From: Chloroflexota bacterium
Lineage (GTDB): Bacteria > Chloroflexota > UBA11872 > VXOZ01
DNA: 64,000 nt
Direction of reading: 5' to 3'
Assembly: GCA_958295775.1 (NCBI GenBank)
Contig: CATQHC010000002.1
Span: 448,915-512,914 of the forward strand
In this document: one piece after another, positions 1-7,729 of the stretch
How the letters are laid out: every line of letters begins with the position of its first letter
Numbering within the stretch: position 1 is the stretch's first letter
The notes under the pieces: model-generated
The model's input: the letters and a program-made list of their open reading frames with translations, nothing else
Told to the model about the DNA's origin: nothing
Databases searched by the model: none
Position numbers and translations under genes: made by a program

Positions 1-1346
1 AGCAACTCAGCAAAGAAGATCCTGCCGTCCGGCGCTGCCGCCAAAGCCACCGGCCATGCTGCATCTATTACTTTGCCTTCTGCCATAGCGATGCGGCGTG
101 TAAGTGCCGGCTGCCGAAAGCGCGGTGATACGTAGTCGCCGGACTGACCGTCGCGGACATAGACGTGGAGGTCAACTTGGCCGCCAGGGAGATCGGAGAC
201 GTGAGCAAAGAACCCACTACTCGTGAATGGCGGGTGATCGAGTGCCTGCGCGATATCAGGCCGATAGGCGCCGTAGGTTGCTTCCGTAAGAAACTTCCCG
301 GTCTCTCGCGGGCCGTTCCAGATTTCAACGGAACCGACGCCGGTCCCTTTATCACTACCGGGAATGACGACCCAGCCTTGCACGGTTACAGGTAGGCTAA
401 GCAGGTCGCTCTCGGCAGGCAAGTCGATGGTTCCGAGGTACCCCGGGAGTAGCGATCGGTGTGGTGTATTGGGCAGGAAATCCAGAGGTATGGTGGCCGT
501 AGCGGCAAGCGAGTTATTCTGGAAATATGCTAGGAGAAGCAGAGTATGGGCTCCGGCAGGCGCATCCTGGATGCTGAGGACAAACTCGCTCTGTAGGTCC
601 CGTGGTGAGGAATGTACCCGTGTTGTTGAACCGATTTGCGCGCCGTCAATCCATGCATCTATACGAGCGATTTTGAGGTCAGTGTCGCTGGGCTTTTCAA
701 CCGATCCTTCAAGTGCGAACGTGGTGCTCACACTGGCGCCGGCTGGGGGCGAGGAGATTGAAAGCCTGCCACAGGATGGTTGCCACGAAGAGGCTGTCAT
801 GCCTTCCGGAACTATAGTAATTGTGCTATAGAAAGGAGTCTCCACTATGTAACGCGCATCGCTGATGACTATCACACCGGGGCGCTTGGGCAAAACTAGC
901 ACCTCAGCTCGTCCATTAGGAGGTATGTTGAGGTCTAGGTCCTCATCGAAGAGTTCATAGACTCTGAGAGAATGCCATTCGTCCCCAGTTTCAACTACTA
1001 GCCGGTAAGGCCGGTTCTGTTCTAACACAATGTCGTTTGGCACGATGCGGTAGGGACGCTCGAGCATCTGGATGTTGATGACCTCGGGAGTAGGTACTGT
1101 GGGGTTAGCGGTTTCTCGCTCTACGCTAATGTGCGTATGACACGGTAGCCATGGCAGACTTGGTGCGAGCGCTTCGTTGGAAGATGCAATTGGCGTTCGC
1201 GATAATGTTTCGCTCGAGACCTCATCGGACTGTTCTTCCCCATTCCCACACGACACCAAGAGTGCGATGCCTATGGCCAGGACCAGAAAGAGGAAGGCCC
1301 TCTGTGGAACCCTGTGAGTAACTCTCTCGTCTTGTTTGCGCTCCAA
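1..1346 (-). CDS. Secreted lipoprotein with glucose/sorbosone-dehydrogenase-type propeller (3' end outside window)
   Basis: One uninterrupted reading frame runs from a TTG at 1346 to the left edge, so the C-terminal part is missing. The start is TTG because an in-frame TAA lies three codons upstream and no ATG or GTG precedes the signal peptide; GAGGA lies about 11 bases before it. The product has a lipoprotein signal peptide ending in LLVSC, an extracellular linker, a cupredoxin-like segment (PYRIVPNDIVLEQ), an Ig-like Gmad2-type segment, a second beta domain containing TGVGSVEIWNGPRETG, and the first strands of a propeller (AWPVALAAAPDGR). This domain order is the same in the two genes that follow at 1633-3870 and 4184-6482. 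A PQQ-dependent sugar oxidation role is inferred from the family of the downstream copies; the catalytic part of this copy is not in the window. Confidence 0.75.
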   Translation of the reverse strand, partial: MERKQDERVTHRVPQRAFLFLVLAIGIALLVSCGNGEEQSDEVSSETLSRTPIASSNEALAPSLPWLPCHTHISVERETANPTVPTPEVINIQMLERPYRIVPNDIVLEQNRPYRLVVETGDEWHSLRVYELFDEDLDLNIPPNGRAEVLVLPKRPGVIVISDARYIVETPFYSTITIVPEGMTASSWQPSCGRLSISSPPAGASVSTTFALEGSVEKPSDTDLKIARIDAWIDGAQIGSTTRVHSSPRDLQSEFVLSIQDAPAGAHTLLLLAYFQNNSLAATATIPLDFLPNTPHRSLLPGYLGTIDLPAESDLLSLPVTVQGWVVIPGSDKGTGVGSVEIWNGPRETGKFLTEATYGAYRPDIAQALDHPPFTSSGFFAHVSDLPGGQVDLHVYVRDGQSGDYVSPRFRQPALTRRIAMAEGKVIDAAWPVALAAAPDGRIFFAEL

Positions 1347-1632: not shown

Positions 1633-3870
1633 TCACTCTGCACTTTTGTCGTGCAAGTACAGGAGGTCGTCCAACTGCGCGCGGTAGATTGCGGATGGCG
1701 TGCTGTAGTAAAGCCACCCATCGCTGCCGTATGTGACGTCGAGCGCGCAGTTGGTCGACAGAACCAGCTTGCTGTCAACAGATTCATAGTCAGGCGCACT
1801 CAAACGCACGCCGCGCAAGAAGAAGTCGGTGAAGCCGCACAACAGCAAGAGATCTGGTTGCTCCGTAGTAAACGTCGCACCCGTCGGCGCGGTGGGCAAT
1901 TCGGGCCAGTTGCCGAAAACAGCAATCGGATCGATGAATCCCTCCGCTTGAGTCACGCCCATGTGGAGCGGCCAGCCATAGTTTTGCCCGGCTTCAACCT
2001 TATTCACCTCGTCAAAACCGGCCGGGCCATTCTCCGTGGCGAATAGGAATCCGGTGTTGGGCTGCACAGCCAGGCCAAAGACGTTACGAAAACCAATCGC
2101 GTACACAGGGGACGAAGGATCGGGATTGTCATTGGGAATCGAACCGTCAAGATTGTACCTGAGGATGGAGCCCGGCAATTGCGAAGGATCCTGGGAAAGC
2201 TCTCTAATCCAAATGTCGCCTATCGAAAGATACAACTTGCCATCGATTCCGAAGGCGATGCGCCCTCCATTATGGAATCCTTCTATTGCAAAAGGAAGAT
2301 CATCAAGTATCACGGTATAGTCTTGCCCAACATTGCCGACATCGCGGAAACGGACGACACGCTGCATGCGAGGAAGGTCGGTTTCCGCGTCCCGCACTAC
2401 ATACATGGCGTAGAGATAGGGCTCCTTTGGATAATTCGGATGGAGCGCAAGGCCGAGGAGACCGGTTTCTCGATGATACGTTACGTCTTCGAGCGTAGCG
2501 AAAGGCTTCGGCAGCACCTGACCGTCCTGCAAAACCATGATTCTTCCCGTAAGCAATTCAGCAAAGAAGAGTCTGCCGTCCGGCGCAGCCGCCAAGGCCA
2601 CCGGCCATGCCGCATCGGTGACTTTGCCCTCGGCAAGTGAAAACGTCTGAGTAAGTTCTGGCTGCCGGAAACGCGGCGACACATAGTCGCCGGTCTCACG
2701 ATCACGGACATAGAAGTGAAGAGTGACTTCCCCAGCGGGAAGGTTATCTAGCTGCGCGATAAAACCGCTGCTGGCAAGTGAGGGCTCGCCGAATTCTTCG
2801 GCAACATCGGATCGATAGAGACCGTATGCAGCTTCGGTGAGGAACTGACCCGTTTCGCGGGGGCCGTTCCAAATCTCAACGGCGCCAACGCCCGTACCCA
2901 GTTTGCTGCCGGGGACTACTGCCCAGCCCTGGACGGTGACGGGGAGGCTGAGAAGCTCGTTCTCTAGTGGCAGGTCGATGTTGCCGCGATAGCCCGGTAA
3001 AAAGCCGCCACTTGAATCACTTGGTAGGACGTTTAGTGGGACAATTGTCGTGGCGGTGAGGGTCCCATTCTGCAAGTAAGCCTTGAGAAGCAGAGTATGC
3101 GCTCCGGGCGCTAGTTCTGGAATGGCGAGAAAGAAGCTGCTGCCCGCGGCGCGGGCGCGGAAATCGCTGTGCGCAATGTAACTCTTAACGAACTGCTCTC
3201 TCGTCACTACTCCCACCTGCTGTCCATCGCTCCACGCCTCCACGCGGTCTATGTGCAAACTGGTGCCACTTGCCCGCGCAACTGAACCCTCAATGGCAAA
3301 TGGGGCGCCCAATTCAGCGTTAGGTGGCGGGGAATGAACCTGTATGTGTCCGCACAGTGAGTTCCATGTTGCGGCTGCAACTCCCTTCGGAACGACAGTT
3401 ATTGTGCTGATCAACTCGCTCTCCGGCATGCGGCGCCAGTTCTCGATAGGGAATATCCCAGGCTCAAGCGGTCGTACCAAGGCATCGATTTGGCCGCCGG
3501 GTGGTATCTCATAGTCCAGCCCCAGGGGAAGCACTCTAAAACCATGCGTCGCATTGCCTGCCTGTACGATCAGCCGATACTGGGTGTCCTGCTCCAGCAC
3601 GACATCGTTTGGCACAACTCGATAGGGATGTTCTCGCATCTGGATGAATATGGTTTCAGGTGTGGGGCTAGCTTCCGGTTCAACTGGGGCCTCAACTCTA
3701 GGACTAACGAAACAGGGCAGATCCGGTTGAACGGGCTGGGTCGAAGTGGGTGCGCCAACCTCCGGCAGAACTGATTCTGCCGGTCTCGGAGTTTCCTCGT
3801 CGCCGTTGCCGCAGGAGGCAATGAGAGCGATTCCAACCAAGAATGCGAACAATAAGATTGGTTTGCGCAT
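1633..3870 (-). CDS. PQQ-type glucose/sorbosone dehydrogenase lipoprotein, paralogue 2
   Basis: This 745-residue protein is predicted to be anchored on the cell surface. ATG at 3870 is preferred because GTGGAG lies just upstream and it is followed directly by a lipoprotein signal peptide (MRKPILLFAF...) with lipobox LIASC; the frame extends to a TTG at 3993 without a comparable ribosome site. Domains in order are a cupredoxin-like segment, an Ig-like domain, a beta domain with EIWNGPRETG, and a C-terminal six-bladed propeller of about 350 residues. The propeller carries the family motifs HNGGRIAFG, LYLSIGD, GSILRYNLDGSI and GFRNVFGLAVQP. In characterised relatives this fold binds PQQ and calcium and oxidises aldoses or related alcohols; the substrate here is unknown. 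It is flanked by two paralogues on the same strand, so tandem duplication is clear. Confidence 0.85.
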   Translation of the reverse strand: MRKPILLFAFLVGIALIASCGNGDEETPRPAESVLPEVGAPTSTQPVQPDLPCFVSPRVEAPVEPEASPTPETIFIQMREHPYRVVPNDVVLEQDTQYRLIVQAGNATHGFRVLPLGLDYEIPPGGQIDALVRPLEPGIFPIENWRRMPESELISTITVVPKGVAAATWNSLCGHIQVHSPPPNAELGAPFAIEGSVARASGTSLHIDRVEAWSDGQQVGVVTREQFVKSYIAHSDFRARAAGSSFFLAIPELAPGAHTLLLKAYLQNGTLTATTIVPLNVLPSDSSGGFLPGYRGNIDLPLENELLSLPVTVQGWAVVPGSKLGTGVGAVEIWNGPRETGQFLTEAAYGLYRSDVAEEFGEPSLASSGFIAQLDNLPAGEVTLHFYVRDRETGDYVSPRFRQPELTQTFSLAEGKVTDAAWPVALAAAPDGRLFFAELLTGRIMVLQDGQVLPKPFATLEDVTYHRETGLLGLALHPNYPKEPYLYAMYVVRDAETDLPRMQRVVRFRDVGNVGQDYTVILDDLPFAIEGFHNGGRIAFGIDGKLYLSIGDIWIRELSQDPSQLPGSILRYNLDGSIPNDNPDPSSPVYAIGFRNVFGLAVQPNTGFLFATENGPAGFDEVNKVEAGQNYGWPLHMGVTQAEGFIDPIAVFGNWPELPTAPTGATFTTEQPDLLLLCGFTDFFLRGVRLSAPDYESVDSKLVLSTNCALDVTYGSDGWLYYSTPSAIYRAQLDDLLYLHDKSAE

Positions 3871-4183
3871 TGTACTCCACAGAAGGCTGTGGCCCTGCGT
3901 GCCTGGCACGGCCCTAGGCTTCCATCGCCTATGTGTAACCACGAATTCTTCTTTTGCTTGTACTTCGCTCAATGGACTGCGATCTAAATCCAATAGCCAC
4001 GCTGCATAATAGAAGGTTCTCGTCGTGAAGTGCCTACTGTTTTAGTGCTAGATTCCACTCTTGCACTACCCAATAACTGACCATGCAATGGAACCCTAGA
4101 CTGGAGAGACCCTCAGTCTCTCTCCAACAATCGAAGAACCGGCGCCTTTGCAGACGAAACGCAGTGGACACTCTGGCTAATTC
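3871..4183. other. Intergenic spacer with an imperfect hairpin
   Basis: No gene is visible in this 313-base spacer. An 8-bp inverted repeat (TGGAGAGA at 4102-4109 with TCTCTCCA at 4119-4126) could fold after the end of paralogue 3. It lacks a U-run on the minus strand, so it is only a weak terminator candidate. The promoter of paralogue 2 should lie between it and 3870, but I cannot place it. Confidence 0.35.
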
Positions 4184-5599
4184 TCACTGTGCCGTTTCAT
4201 TTTCGTGTAAACGAAGGAGATCGTCCAGCCGCGCGCGGTAGATTGCGGAGATTGTGCTGTAGTAGAGCCATCCGTCAGTACTATAAGTGACGTCGAGCGC
4301 GCAGTTGGTGGAGAGCACCGTAGTGTTCTCCACGGAATCATAGTCAGCGCCACTCAAATGAACTGCACGCAGGTAGAAGTCATGGTAGGCACAAAAGAGC
4401 AAGAGATTGGGATGCTCGGCTGCAAAGGTGGCGCCGGTCGGTCCGATAGGCCGTTCGGGCCAATTGCCGTAGACAGCGATGGGGTCGGTATAGTCTCTGA
4501 CATTCGCCTTGCCCATTTGACCGGGCCAGCCGTAGTTTTCACCAGCTTCAATCTTATTGACCTCGTCGAAGCCTCCCGGTCCGTTGTCCGTGGCGTACAG
4601 ATCGCCAGTCTTAGGATGAAAGGCGAGGCCGAAGACATTGCGTAGACCGACCGCGTAGACTGGATAACCTGGGAAAGGATTGTCGTCGGGAATGGCGCCG
4701 TCAGGATTGAACCGCAGGATAGACCCCGCGGGATTGGTGTGGTCTTGGGCGAGTTCCATGGCGTTTGTGTCCCCAATTGAAAGATAGAGCTTGCCGTCAG
4801 GGCCGAAGGCAATGCGCCCGCCATTGTGCGTTGTTCCCGTAGTAGCGGGCAAATTATCCACGATTACCGTTCGATCTTCCCCGGTACCAGCAACATCGCG
4901 AAAGCGCACGACGCGCTGTCCACTGGGCAATCCAGTTGTGGGATCATTCACGACATACATGGCGTAGATGAAAGGTTCTTGAGGATAGTTCGGGTGAAGA
5001 GCAAGACCCAAGAACCCGGATTCTGCATGTGTTGAGACATCGTCAAGCGTAGCAAATGGCGATTGCAAGAGTTGCCCTTCTCGCACGATGCGGATGTTTC
5101 CCGTGAGGAGTTCAGCGTAGAAGAGCTTGCCGTCCGGCGCGGCGGCTAAGGCGACCGGCCAGGCAGCGTCCGTGACCTTGCCTTCCGCGAGTGCAATTGG
5201 TCGGGCTAACTCTGACTCAAGCAGGCGCGGCGCCAAGTACTCTCCACTTTGGCGGTCACGGACATAGACGCGAAGGTCTACTGCGCCTACAGGCAGGTCG
5301 GTAAGCCGGGCAAAAAACCCACTGGAGGCGAAGCGAAGTTCGCCGAGTGATTCAGCGACATCAGGGCGGTACAATCCGTAACTAGCCTCCGTGAGAAAGG
5401 TGCCGCTCTCTCGCGGACCGTTCCAGATTTCGACAGAGCCCACTCCGGTGCCGATCTTGCTCCGCGGATTAACTACCCACCCTTGAATGGTAACTGGCAA
5501 GCTATGTAAAGCGTCTACACCGGGCACATCGATGCTGCCGCGATAGCCTGGGATTACCCCCCCCCCCCCCCCCCCCGGCCGAAGCATCGCCGAGCACAT
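4184..5599 (-). pseudogene. 3' part of lipoprotein paralogue 3 (propeller half), out of frame with its start
   Basis: This frame encodes the EIWNGPRESG beta domain and a complete glucose/sorbosone-dehydrogenase propeller (HNGGRIAFGPDGKLY, LYLSIGDT, GSILRFNPDGAIP, GLRNVFGLAFHP). It lacks its own signal peptide. The upstream half of the same ancestral gene lies at 5502-6482 in another frame, and the two frames overlap across a run of 20 identical bases at 5557-5576. With 19 or 22 bases in the run the two halves would join into one protein of about 765 residues, close to the 745 of paralogue 2. As read, this half would be translated only by slippage or by internal initiation. It could be an off state of a phase-variable gene, a decayed gene or a sequencing error; the otherwise intact frame argues against old decay. 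Confidence 0.75.
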
Positions 5600-6482
5600 T
5601 TATGGGGAGTATTGACGTAGCAGCGACCATACCGCTCTGCAAGTAGGCCCTGAGGATCAGGGAATGTGAGCCAGGCAGCAAGGTTGAGACGGAGAGGAGG
5701 AAGTCACTGTAAAGGCCACGGCGCATGAATTCTTCTCTGCTGGTGACACCCACCAACTCTCCATTGCTCCAAGCCTCAACGCGCACTACAAACATTGTCT
5801 CAGGGCTATGCTGAAGCGTTACGTTGCCAACAACCCCTTGCACTATGAACGGTGTGCTCAGCCTTGCATTAGGATGTGGCGAACTAATCTGAAACTCAGC
5901 GCACAGCGGATGTCCCGATAGCTCTGACACTCCCTCTGGGATTACCGTAATGGTACTCCGAACTTCGCTCTCGCGAATGTGGCGGTTGTCTAGAATTGGA
6001 AAAATGCCAAGTCGATCGGGCTGCAATAACATGGTATGTTGGCCGCCAGGCGGCAAGAGAAGGTCTTCCTGCCAGATGTCTGACGCTAGAAGATGCCATT
6101 CATTGCCTGCGGAAATTACGAACTGATAGGCTCGATTTCTGTAGAGCACTATGTTTTTTGGGACGATGCGGTAAGGTCTTTCCAGTGCTTGAATCTCGAC
6201 GACCTCTGGGGTTGGAGAAGCGGTTGGGGCCACTTCTCTCGCCGGACGGATATCGACAAAGCAGGACAAGAATTCTTCTTCAGATGCGCGCGATGCATCC
6301 GTACTAGTCGGAGAAGAAACTGGGGTCGGATTCGCCTCACTACCATCGTCGCCGTTGCCGCAGGAGGCAAGTAACAAAACCACAATCAAGCAGAATAGAG
6401 TAAGGCCATACTCTGTTCTATGCTTCTGATTGTCTGTTACTTCCTGGATTGGCACGCTTCCTGTGCCGTCTGCCCAGACCAC
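5502..6482 (-). CDS. 5' part of lipoprotein paralogue 3, ending early after a poly-G tract
   Basis: The start is GTG at 6482, with TAGGAG nine bases upstream. The product begins with a signal peptide ending in lipobox LLASC, then a Ser/Thr/Pro-rich linker, the cupredoxin-like segment (ERPYRIVPKNIVLY) and the Ig-like domain (HPNARLSTPFIVQG). After seven glycines encoded by the homopolymer the frame continues into about 17 unrelated residues and stops. The result is a 326-residue secreted lipoprotein without the enzymatic propeller. Changing the tract by one base less or two more would restore the full gene. Its neighbours are the intact paralogue 2 and the window-edge paralogue 1, both on the same strand. 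Confidence 0.75.
   Translation of the reverse strand: MVWADGTGSVPIQEVTDNQKHRTEYGLTLFCLIVVLLLASCGNGDDGSEANPTPVSSPTSTDASRASEEEFLSCFVDIRPAREVAPTASPTPEVVEIQALERPYRIVPKNIVLYRNRAYQFVISAGNEWHLLASDIWQEDLLLPPGGQHTMLLQPDRLGIFPILDNRHIRESEVRSTITVIPEGVSELSGHPLCAEFQISSPHPNARLSTPFIVQGVVGNVTLQHSPETMFVVRVEAWSNGELVGVTSREEFMRRGLYSDFLLSVSTLLPGSHSLILRAYLQSGMVAATSILPINVLGDASAGGGGGGGNPRLSRQHRCARCRRFT
5557..5576. repeat. Homopolymeric C20 (G20 on the coding strand) inside paralogue 3
   Basis: Twenty consecutive C on the plus strand encode a glycine run on the minus strand, at the junction between the Ig-like domain and the EIWNGPRESG domain. Paralogue 2 has only a short Ser-Gly-Gly at the same place. Long poly-G tracts inside coding regions are the classic substrate of slipped-strand phase variation. 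They are also prone to sequencing error. Confidence 0.9.
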
Positions 6483-6799
6483 GTAAATCGGCTCCTACCG
6501 GTTACTGGGCGCACATCCATTGCACGTTCAGTCTCGTATACGATAGCCGGTGCGCGAGCGCCCCTTTTGACCCAGATCGACACTTCTCCTTAGAACCGTA
6601 CCGTGGGAAGTTTCGGCGCGCTCAATCGGAGTCAGCCCTCTGCGGCTCCACGCTGCCTTCTCTCGAGCCATCCGATCCTGAGGAAAGTAGATTGGCAAGA
6701 TGGCTCACCAAGCGCATTTGTAAGACCTGGGTCTATAAAACTCATCCACGCAGATGACAACTTGCTCGCTCTGAGCTCTTCCAAGAGAGAGCAACCGTG
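6483..6799. other. Intergenic region upstream of paralogue 3
   Basis: The 317 bases separate the start of paralogue 3 from the end of the C-N hydrolase gene. The only structures seen are the TAGGAG ribosome site for the GTG at 6482 and a 10-base palindrome TCGTATACGA at 6534-6543 that could be part of its promoter or operator. No gene is supported. Confidence 0.4.
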
Positions 6800-7729
6800 T
6801 CAAGAATCACGCGCATGCCCAAGCATCGGGCTATAGAGATCCGTTCTCCGGTCGAGCCAGGTGTGGTTTAGGTCGTTGCGGTGCTTGGCTCTGCGGGCGG
6901 AGGAGAGGTTCATTTCAGCGACGAGCACTTCTTCGCCGTCTTTGCTTGCAGGGCCGGCCAATGGAGTTCCCGCGGGATCGATGATGAGGCTGCAGCCAAG
7001 AAACTGGACGCCGCGTTCTTCACCCACGCGGTCGGCGCACGCCATGAACACTTGATTCATCGCGGCGTTGGCCAGAGCGACATAGTTCGCCTGGCAGTAC
7101 CCCTGCGCATCCCAGAGTCGGTCCGGGGTCATCATGCTCACCCAATTGGTCGGTACGCAAATCACGTCAGCGCCCTTGAGCGCCAGGATGCGGCTTGCCT
7201 CCGGAAAGCGTAAGTCGTAGCAGATGAGTATGCCAATGCGGCCAAACGGCAACTCGAACACAGGAAACCCTAAGTCTCCAGGCCTGTAATAGAGCTTCTC
7301 TTCATAGAAGAGATGTGTCTTGCGGTAGGTGCCAAGTATGCCGGAGGGACCAAGGACAAGGGCTGAGTTATAGAACTCCGTGTCGCTCACCCTCTCGCCA
7401 AACCCGGCGACAACGTAGGCGCCATACTCCTGCGCGAGCTGCTGCCAACTTGCCAATGCCGGGCTGTCTTCCGGTCGCTCTGCAAGCGAGCGCGCCTCAT
7501 TGCTGGAGAATACAACGTAACCGCTATTTGCCATTTCGGGAAGCACGATCAAGTCGGCGCCGTTATCAGCCGCCTCTCGTATCGCCCGCGCCCCTTTTTT
7601 GACGTTGGCAGGCATGTCGCCGAGCACCGGGGCGTACTGGCAAACGGCCGTGCGAATGAGGTTGCCCCGCTCCGAAACTGGAAGCGTGTCATCCTGAACG
7701 AGGGGGCTCCGCTCAAGTTCTGCGCGCAT
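6800..7729 (-). CDS. Carbon-nitrogen hydrolase (nitrilase superfamily)
   Basis: This 309-residue cytosolic enzyme has the full nitrilase-superfamily catalytic triad: Glu65 in LPEMA, Lys137 in YRKTHLF and Cys170 in LICYDLRFPE. The family hydrolyses or transfers amide C-N bonds in small molecules. The R/D-rich motif after Cys resembles branches acting on omega-amides or carbamoyl compounds, but the substrate cannot be read from sequence. The first roughly 22 residues precede the conserved core, so a later start is possible. The ATG at 7729 lies two bases after the dnaN stop codon, which indicates co-transcription and probably translational coupling with dnaN. No functional link between the two products is known. 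Confidence 0.88.
   Translation of the reverse strand: MRAELERSPLVQDDTLPVSERGNLIRTAVCQYAPVLGDMPANVKKGARAIREAADNGADLIVLPEMANSGYVVFSSNEARSLAERPEDSPALASWQQLAQEYGAYVVAGFGERVSDTEFYNSALVLGPSGILGTYRKTHLFYEEKLYYRPGDLGFPVFELPFGRIGILICYDLRFPEASRILALKGADVICVPTNWVSMMTPDRLWDAQGYCQANYVALANAAMNQVFMACADRVGEERGVQFLGCSLIIDPAGTPLAGPASKDGEEVLVAEMNLSSARRAKHRNDLNHTWLDRRTDLYSPMLGHARDS

Follow-up and report, generated by a model that had tools for sequence, protein, structure and literature searches.

Slippage-driven poly-G on/off switches are known mostly from pathogens. Does a run of twenty G residues in the middle of a lipoprotein gene of a Chloroflexota bacterium work as such a switch, or is the run miscounted, or is the gene decaying? 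An earlier sequence-only reading of the window (the whole 64 kb stretch of DNA analysed here) had proposed a phase-variable surface enzyme at this position. We examined the tract and its two gene halves, their gene family, and the other homopolymer tracts of the genome and of related genomes.

A G20 tract at the junction of two gene halves

The bases 5557-5576 are exactly C20 on the plus strand, that is G20 on the coding minus strand. This is the sole G/C run longer than six bases in the window. Shuffled versions of the window contained on average 0.18 ten-base G matches, and the chance expectation for G/C runs of at least 20 bases is ~3e-6 for the whole genome. The features of the locus are:

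5557..5576, minus strand: G20 homopolymer (C20 on the plus strand) in the coding region, in the linker of two beta domains (from the sequence and the length simulation).
5502..6482, minus strand: upstream half, with an LLASC lipobox signal peptide, weak cupredoxin-like and Ig-like beta domains, the glycine run and, after it, residues read out of frame (GTG start at 6482; 326 aa at the assembled length).
6492..6496, minus strand: AGGAG, a Shine-Dalgarno-like motif 9 nt ahead of the GTG start at 6482 (from the sequence).
4184..5556, minus strand: downstream half, with the second Ig-like beta domain and a GSDH (glucose/sorbosone dehydrogenase) propeller, without its own signal peptide (PF07995, E=1.2e-58).
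1633..3993, minus strand: paralogue 2, intact, of 786 aa; it probably starts at an ATG near 3870 and contains no G/C run of six or more bases.
1..1304, minus strand: third intact copy, of which the 5' part lies in the window (whole gene at G000:C2:448011-450218, 3' end before the window).
6800..7729, minus strand: carbon-nitrogen hydrolase (nitrilase) gene, which flanks the array and marks the insertion site in relatives.

At the assembled length of 20, the upstream frame encodes 326 residues and meets a stop shortly past the tract, while the downstream part is open in a different frame to 4184 (as a listed ORF it spans 4184-5599, 471 aa, with an ATG at 5599). When tract lengths of 10-26 were simulated, only 10, 13, 16, 19, 22 and 25 joined the halves into one protein of 762-767 aa, with 765 aa at length 19 and 766 aa at length 22. 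At all the other lengths, which are not 3n+1, the product ended at 306-328 aa. The claims that the tract lies exactly at the junction of two otherwise intact halves, and that a tract of 19 or 22 bases would yield a single protein of about 765 residues, were thereby borne out, with both frames open and the coordinates correct. Each half shows full-length homology with six intact paralogues and with two further homologues. The joined product had been likened to paralogue 2, and the intact paralogues (744-793 aa) can indeed be aligned with it over the whole length. A collapsed assembly repeat, which had been named as a possible refutation, is ruled out at the tract flanks, since the paralogues are only ~57-66% identical in protein.

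The lipoprotein family and its insertion site

In the family proteins, a lipobox precedes a weak cupredoxin-like match, a pair of Ig-like beta domains and the C-terminal GSDH propeller. The domain layout of the upstream half was taken from a predicted structure of paralogue 2, which has a mean pLDDT of 57 and is usable for the N-terminal domains only. In this model the tract position corresponds to a low-confidence coil at residues 327-330, between beta domains that end at 322 and start at 336. The six glycines encoded by the tract are placed in this coil, separating beta domains two and three. The cupredoxin-like match was obtained for paralogue 2 only and is below the Pfam cut-off (E=0.0056).

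As expected for a bacterial lipoprotein, the upstream half has, by inspection, an LLASC-type lipobox after a hydrophobic core, and its Cys is invariant in the family alignment. The C-terminal half scored 199 bits with PF07995 (cut-off 25). With TIGR03606, the glucose/sorbosone family PQQ-dependent dehydrogenase, the score was 120 bits; since this is below the curated NCBIfam cut-off of 434.55, no assignment to that subfamily is made. The family profile matches the solved structures 2ism, 3a9g and 2g8s and soluble quinoprotein glucose dehydrogenase. The propeller motifs His-x-Gly-Gly-Arg and Arg-Asn are retained, which we take to be the catalytic and PQQ-contacting residues as in quinoprotein glucose dehydrogenase, a role that is predicted here. 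Taken together, the lipobox and the GSDH domain suggest that the product is a surface enzyme. The long form has a flexible glycine linker, and the short form is cut off ahead of the third beta domain, which it loses together with the propeller. This short product had been described as an Ig-only lipoprotein. The lipobox and one Ig-like beta domain are there, but, going by the match in paralogue 2, a weak cupredoxin-like domain belongs to it too, so the product is not Ig-only.

The genome (G000) holds seven family copies in two clusters, at C2:339.5-346.9 kb and C2:445-455.3 kb. The second cluster is an insertion between the nitrilase gene and a DapA-like gene (named by inspection). This site carries four copies here; in a search of same-genus genomes for orthologues of the tract, it carried one in the relative G034 and none in G001, G003 and G004, where the nitrilase gene is followed directly by the DapA-like gene and the nitrilases are 84-87% identical. 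A single copy was found in G002, at another location. The complete architecture was found in only three of the 400 phylum genomes (G000, G002 and G034), and the family is narrowly distributed and lineage-specific. Scanning genome contigs for further homologues returned none with a single protein and only distant GSDH matches with the family alignment. In alignments, neighbouring copies showed no linker tract and the G20 tract was absent from the G002 and G034 homologues, including the G034 copy at the nitrilase site; other species are without the tract or without the gene.

Homopolymer tracts in the genome and in its relatives

Tracts in the 3.42 Mb genome were found by pattern searches. G/C runs of at least seven bases are depleted (34 observed, ~300 expected from dinucleotides). 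Ten runs reach nine bases or more (20, 17, 13, 13, 12, 10, 10, 9, 9 and 9), and five are of at least 12 bases where 0.25 are expected. The two longest, 20 and 17, are both inside the GSDH lipoprotein clusters, which together cover 0.52% of the genome; a post hoc test puts the probability at ~3e-5.

The C17 (G000:C2:341883-341899, coding strand) is positioned just upstream of the family copy C2:339508. The frame of this copy is open back to the tract. Between tract and signal peptide, no ATG, GTG or TTG occurs in this frame other than within the signal core, and the sole usable starts are thus cut off from the signal peptide by C17. Two ATGs upstream of C17 join the frame at tract lengths of 15, 16, 18 and 19, and not at the assembled 17. 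A sigma-70 scan around C17 gave only one match, away from the tract. Two genes outside the family are also split. A C10 at G000:C3:361361 leaves a SAM methyltransferase gene divided over two frames. Its neighbours are GT2 and membrane glycosyltransferase-like genes, and its orthologues in G002 and G034 are just 47% and 36% identical, too little to be informative. At G000:C5:191078 (minus strand), a G9 breaks the gene of a small secreted protein, whose signal peptide is clear. The runs of 12 and 13 bases seem to lie between genes. Surface or modification genes are thus touched at several loci, by C17, C10 and G9 besides G20, as read from the assembled lengths. Models of MutS1 and MutL were matched above cut-off, which does not fit a mismatch-repair-deficient, hypermutable genome. 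With mutS and mutL present, loss of mismatch repair is ruled out as the cause of the tracts.

In the same class, many-contig, short-read-like MAGs contain spurious poly-G and poly-C at N-gaps and contig ends, by which homopolymer surveys can be misled. Their poly-G counts (up to 95) arise largely at such positions and were dropped as support, and tract evidence from relatives was restricted to the cleaner genomes G007, G009 and G025. In G007 (10 contigs), a G12 at G007:C2:2154 interrupts the gene of an N6_N4 DNA methylase that carries an HNH domain at its C-terminal end, and both halves match Pfam; this is possibly a phase-variable restriction-modification gene. In G009 (one contig), a G21 at G009:C1:904302 is in frame within a 635-residue protein that weakly matches the PADLOC candidate defence family PDC-M33A. 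In G025, tracts of 12 and 15 bases are in frame in two predicted polytopic membrane proteins.

These loci might together form a multi-locus poly-G phasome with mismatch repair kept, comprising the family lipoproteins, the glycan-locus methyltransferase and the secreted protein, and in relatives the DNA methyltransferase and the membrane or defence-like genes. We put this forward tentatively, with the odds somewhat against it.

A putative slipped-strand switch and its alternatives

The best reading, which we hold to be probable though far from secure, is that G20 is a slipped-strand phase-variation (contingency) site in a GSDH-propeller lipoprotein gene. Through replication slippage the tract would gain or lose one base, or a few. 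Lengths of 3n+1, such as 19 and 22, would give the full, propeller-bearing lipoprotein of ~765 residues. At any other length, the assembled 20 among them, translation would end just past the tract and leave a short lipoprotein of 306-328 aa without the propeller. The family copy C2:339508 would probably be switched likewise by its C17, at the start codon. In such a gene the tract would be unstable in length and its changes reversible, and the product would be expressed and exposed at the surface. Three marks of a contingency locus were found: a long mononucleotide tract inside the coding region, beyond the chance expectation per genome; a length change that restores one frame between intact halves, as judged by the paralogue alignment; and, going by the assembled lengths, more than one such locus in the genome, in surface or modification genes. 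The phase-variable switch proposed earlier thus fits the anatomy and was strengthened by the genome-wide tracts (20 and 17 in one family, and two more split genes) and by those of class relatives in a DNA methyltransferase and in membrane or defence-like genes; the switching itself stays a prediction.

Slipped-strand mispairing is established for shorter G tracts, and G10-G13 tracts of C. jejuni slip at ~2e-3 to 4e-3 per division (PMC8224891). Since C. jejuni tracts are seldom longer than 13 (PMC8224891), G20 is unusually long, which counts against the switch. MutS and MutL are present and slippage rates may therefore be lower than in Campylobacter. Their presence also counts against the switch, as does the absence of the tract from the G002 and G034 homologues.

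The strongest rival is homopolymer miscounting, in which an error of assembly or basecalling hides a true tract that is in frame (e.g. 19 or 22) in virtually every cell, the gene being an ordinary one for the full-length lipoprotein with its glycine linker. Of the errors in nanopore assemblies, homopolymer indels are the most difficult to purge, and Illumina and HiFi are affected too (PMC11232133). Miscounting takes this rank because all three runs of at least nine bases that have coding sequence to either side are frameshifted and two of them, C10 and G9, are one base short; each of these two splits would be cured by one extra base, and undercalling would look alike. The spurious poly-G of the many-contig relatives points the same way. 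However, at least nine seven-base runs within long ORFs stay in frame, which argues that the assembly is sound at short runs, and the tracts of 12, 15 and 21 bases in G025 and G009 were assembled in frame. Random error would also not explain why the two longest runs fall in a single family, a miscount would leave the tract itself in place, and a real tract of about 20 bases is expected to be unstable even when it is miscounted. On balance we regard a miscount as unlikely, though it has to be taken seriously.

Decay and transcriptional slippage are less likely. In a recent non-adaptive inactivation, the tract would have grown and shifted the frame of a redundant copy, so that decay is beginning and no switch is under selection. 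The genome has six other copies, and the copy number at the insertion site varies between genomes (0, 1 and 4), so one copy may be dispensable. Against this, no additional stop or frameshift was found in ~765 codons of the tract gene, and neither half has an accelerated branch. The terminal branch of the N half is 0.62 (intact copies 0.40-0.76) and that of the C half 0.26 (intact copies 0.15-0.34). As both are within the range of the intact copies, neither half has been long adrift, and with no stops present an old pseudogene is ruled out. In codon score, the C half (0.136) matches paralogue 2 (0.131). Loss of a redundant copy also does not account for the long 5' tract of the second copy, C2:339508, or for the split genes outside the family. 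We consider a recent inactivation quite improbable. Programmed transcriptional slippage, in which RNA polymerase would slip on G20 and mixed mRNAs from a fixed out-of-frame gene would always yield both proteins, is very improbable: long homopolymers are known slippage sites, but the described cases are mostly A or T runs (PMC3711429; PMC2831843), the tract is absent from homologues, and DNA slippage is expected at such a tract anyway.

If the slipped-strand switch is true, tract-switched surface and modification genes exist in a lineage without known disease. The mechanism is an established one, and the novelty would lie in the lineage and in the multi-locus pattern. In the open-access literature, outside which most subscription journals fall, we found no paper that describes phase variation by tracts in Chloroflexi, and neither Chloroflexus nor Dehalococcoides is named in the main text of a 2010 homopolymer survey of 99 genomes.

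Compared with GSDH proteins (PF07995; PQQ aldose-sugar-dehydrogenase-like, PDB 2ism, 3a9g and 2g8s), the tract gene shares the C-terminal propeller with its H-x-G-G-R and R-N motifs. Here, however, the propeller follows in one chain on a lipoprotein signal, a weak cupredoxin-like domain and two Ig-like domains, and the enzyme activity is predicted. The methylase split at G12 in the class relative resembles the poly-G DNA methyltransferases of the phasevarion type. It differs in carrying an HNH domain, belongs to another genome than that of the window and is known from sequence alone. The closest parallels to the window locus are C. jejuni, with 12-29 genes carrying G7-G13 tracts, and Neisseria (hmbR/hpuA). 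There too the length of a G tract within the ORF sets a full or a truncated product, and several loci per genome concern predicted surface-structure and methyltransferase genes. Unlike those systems, the present locus comes from an uncultured lineage that is not known as a pathogen and is known from its assembled sequence. Its tract of 20 is longer than usual and lies mid-gene in an interdomain linker, so that even the off form would be a lipoprotein.
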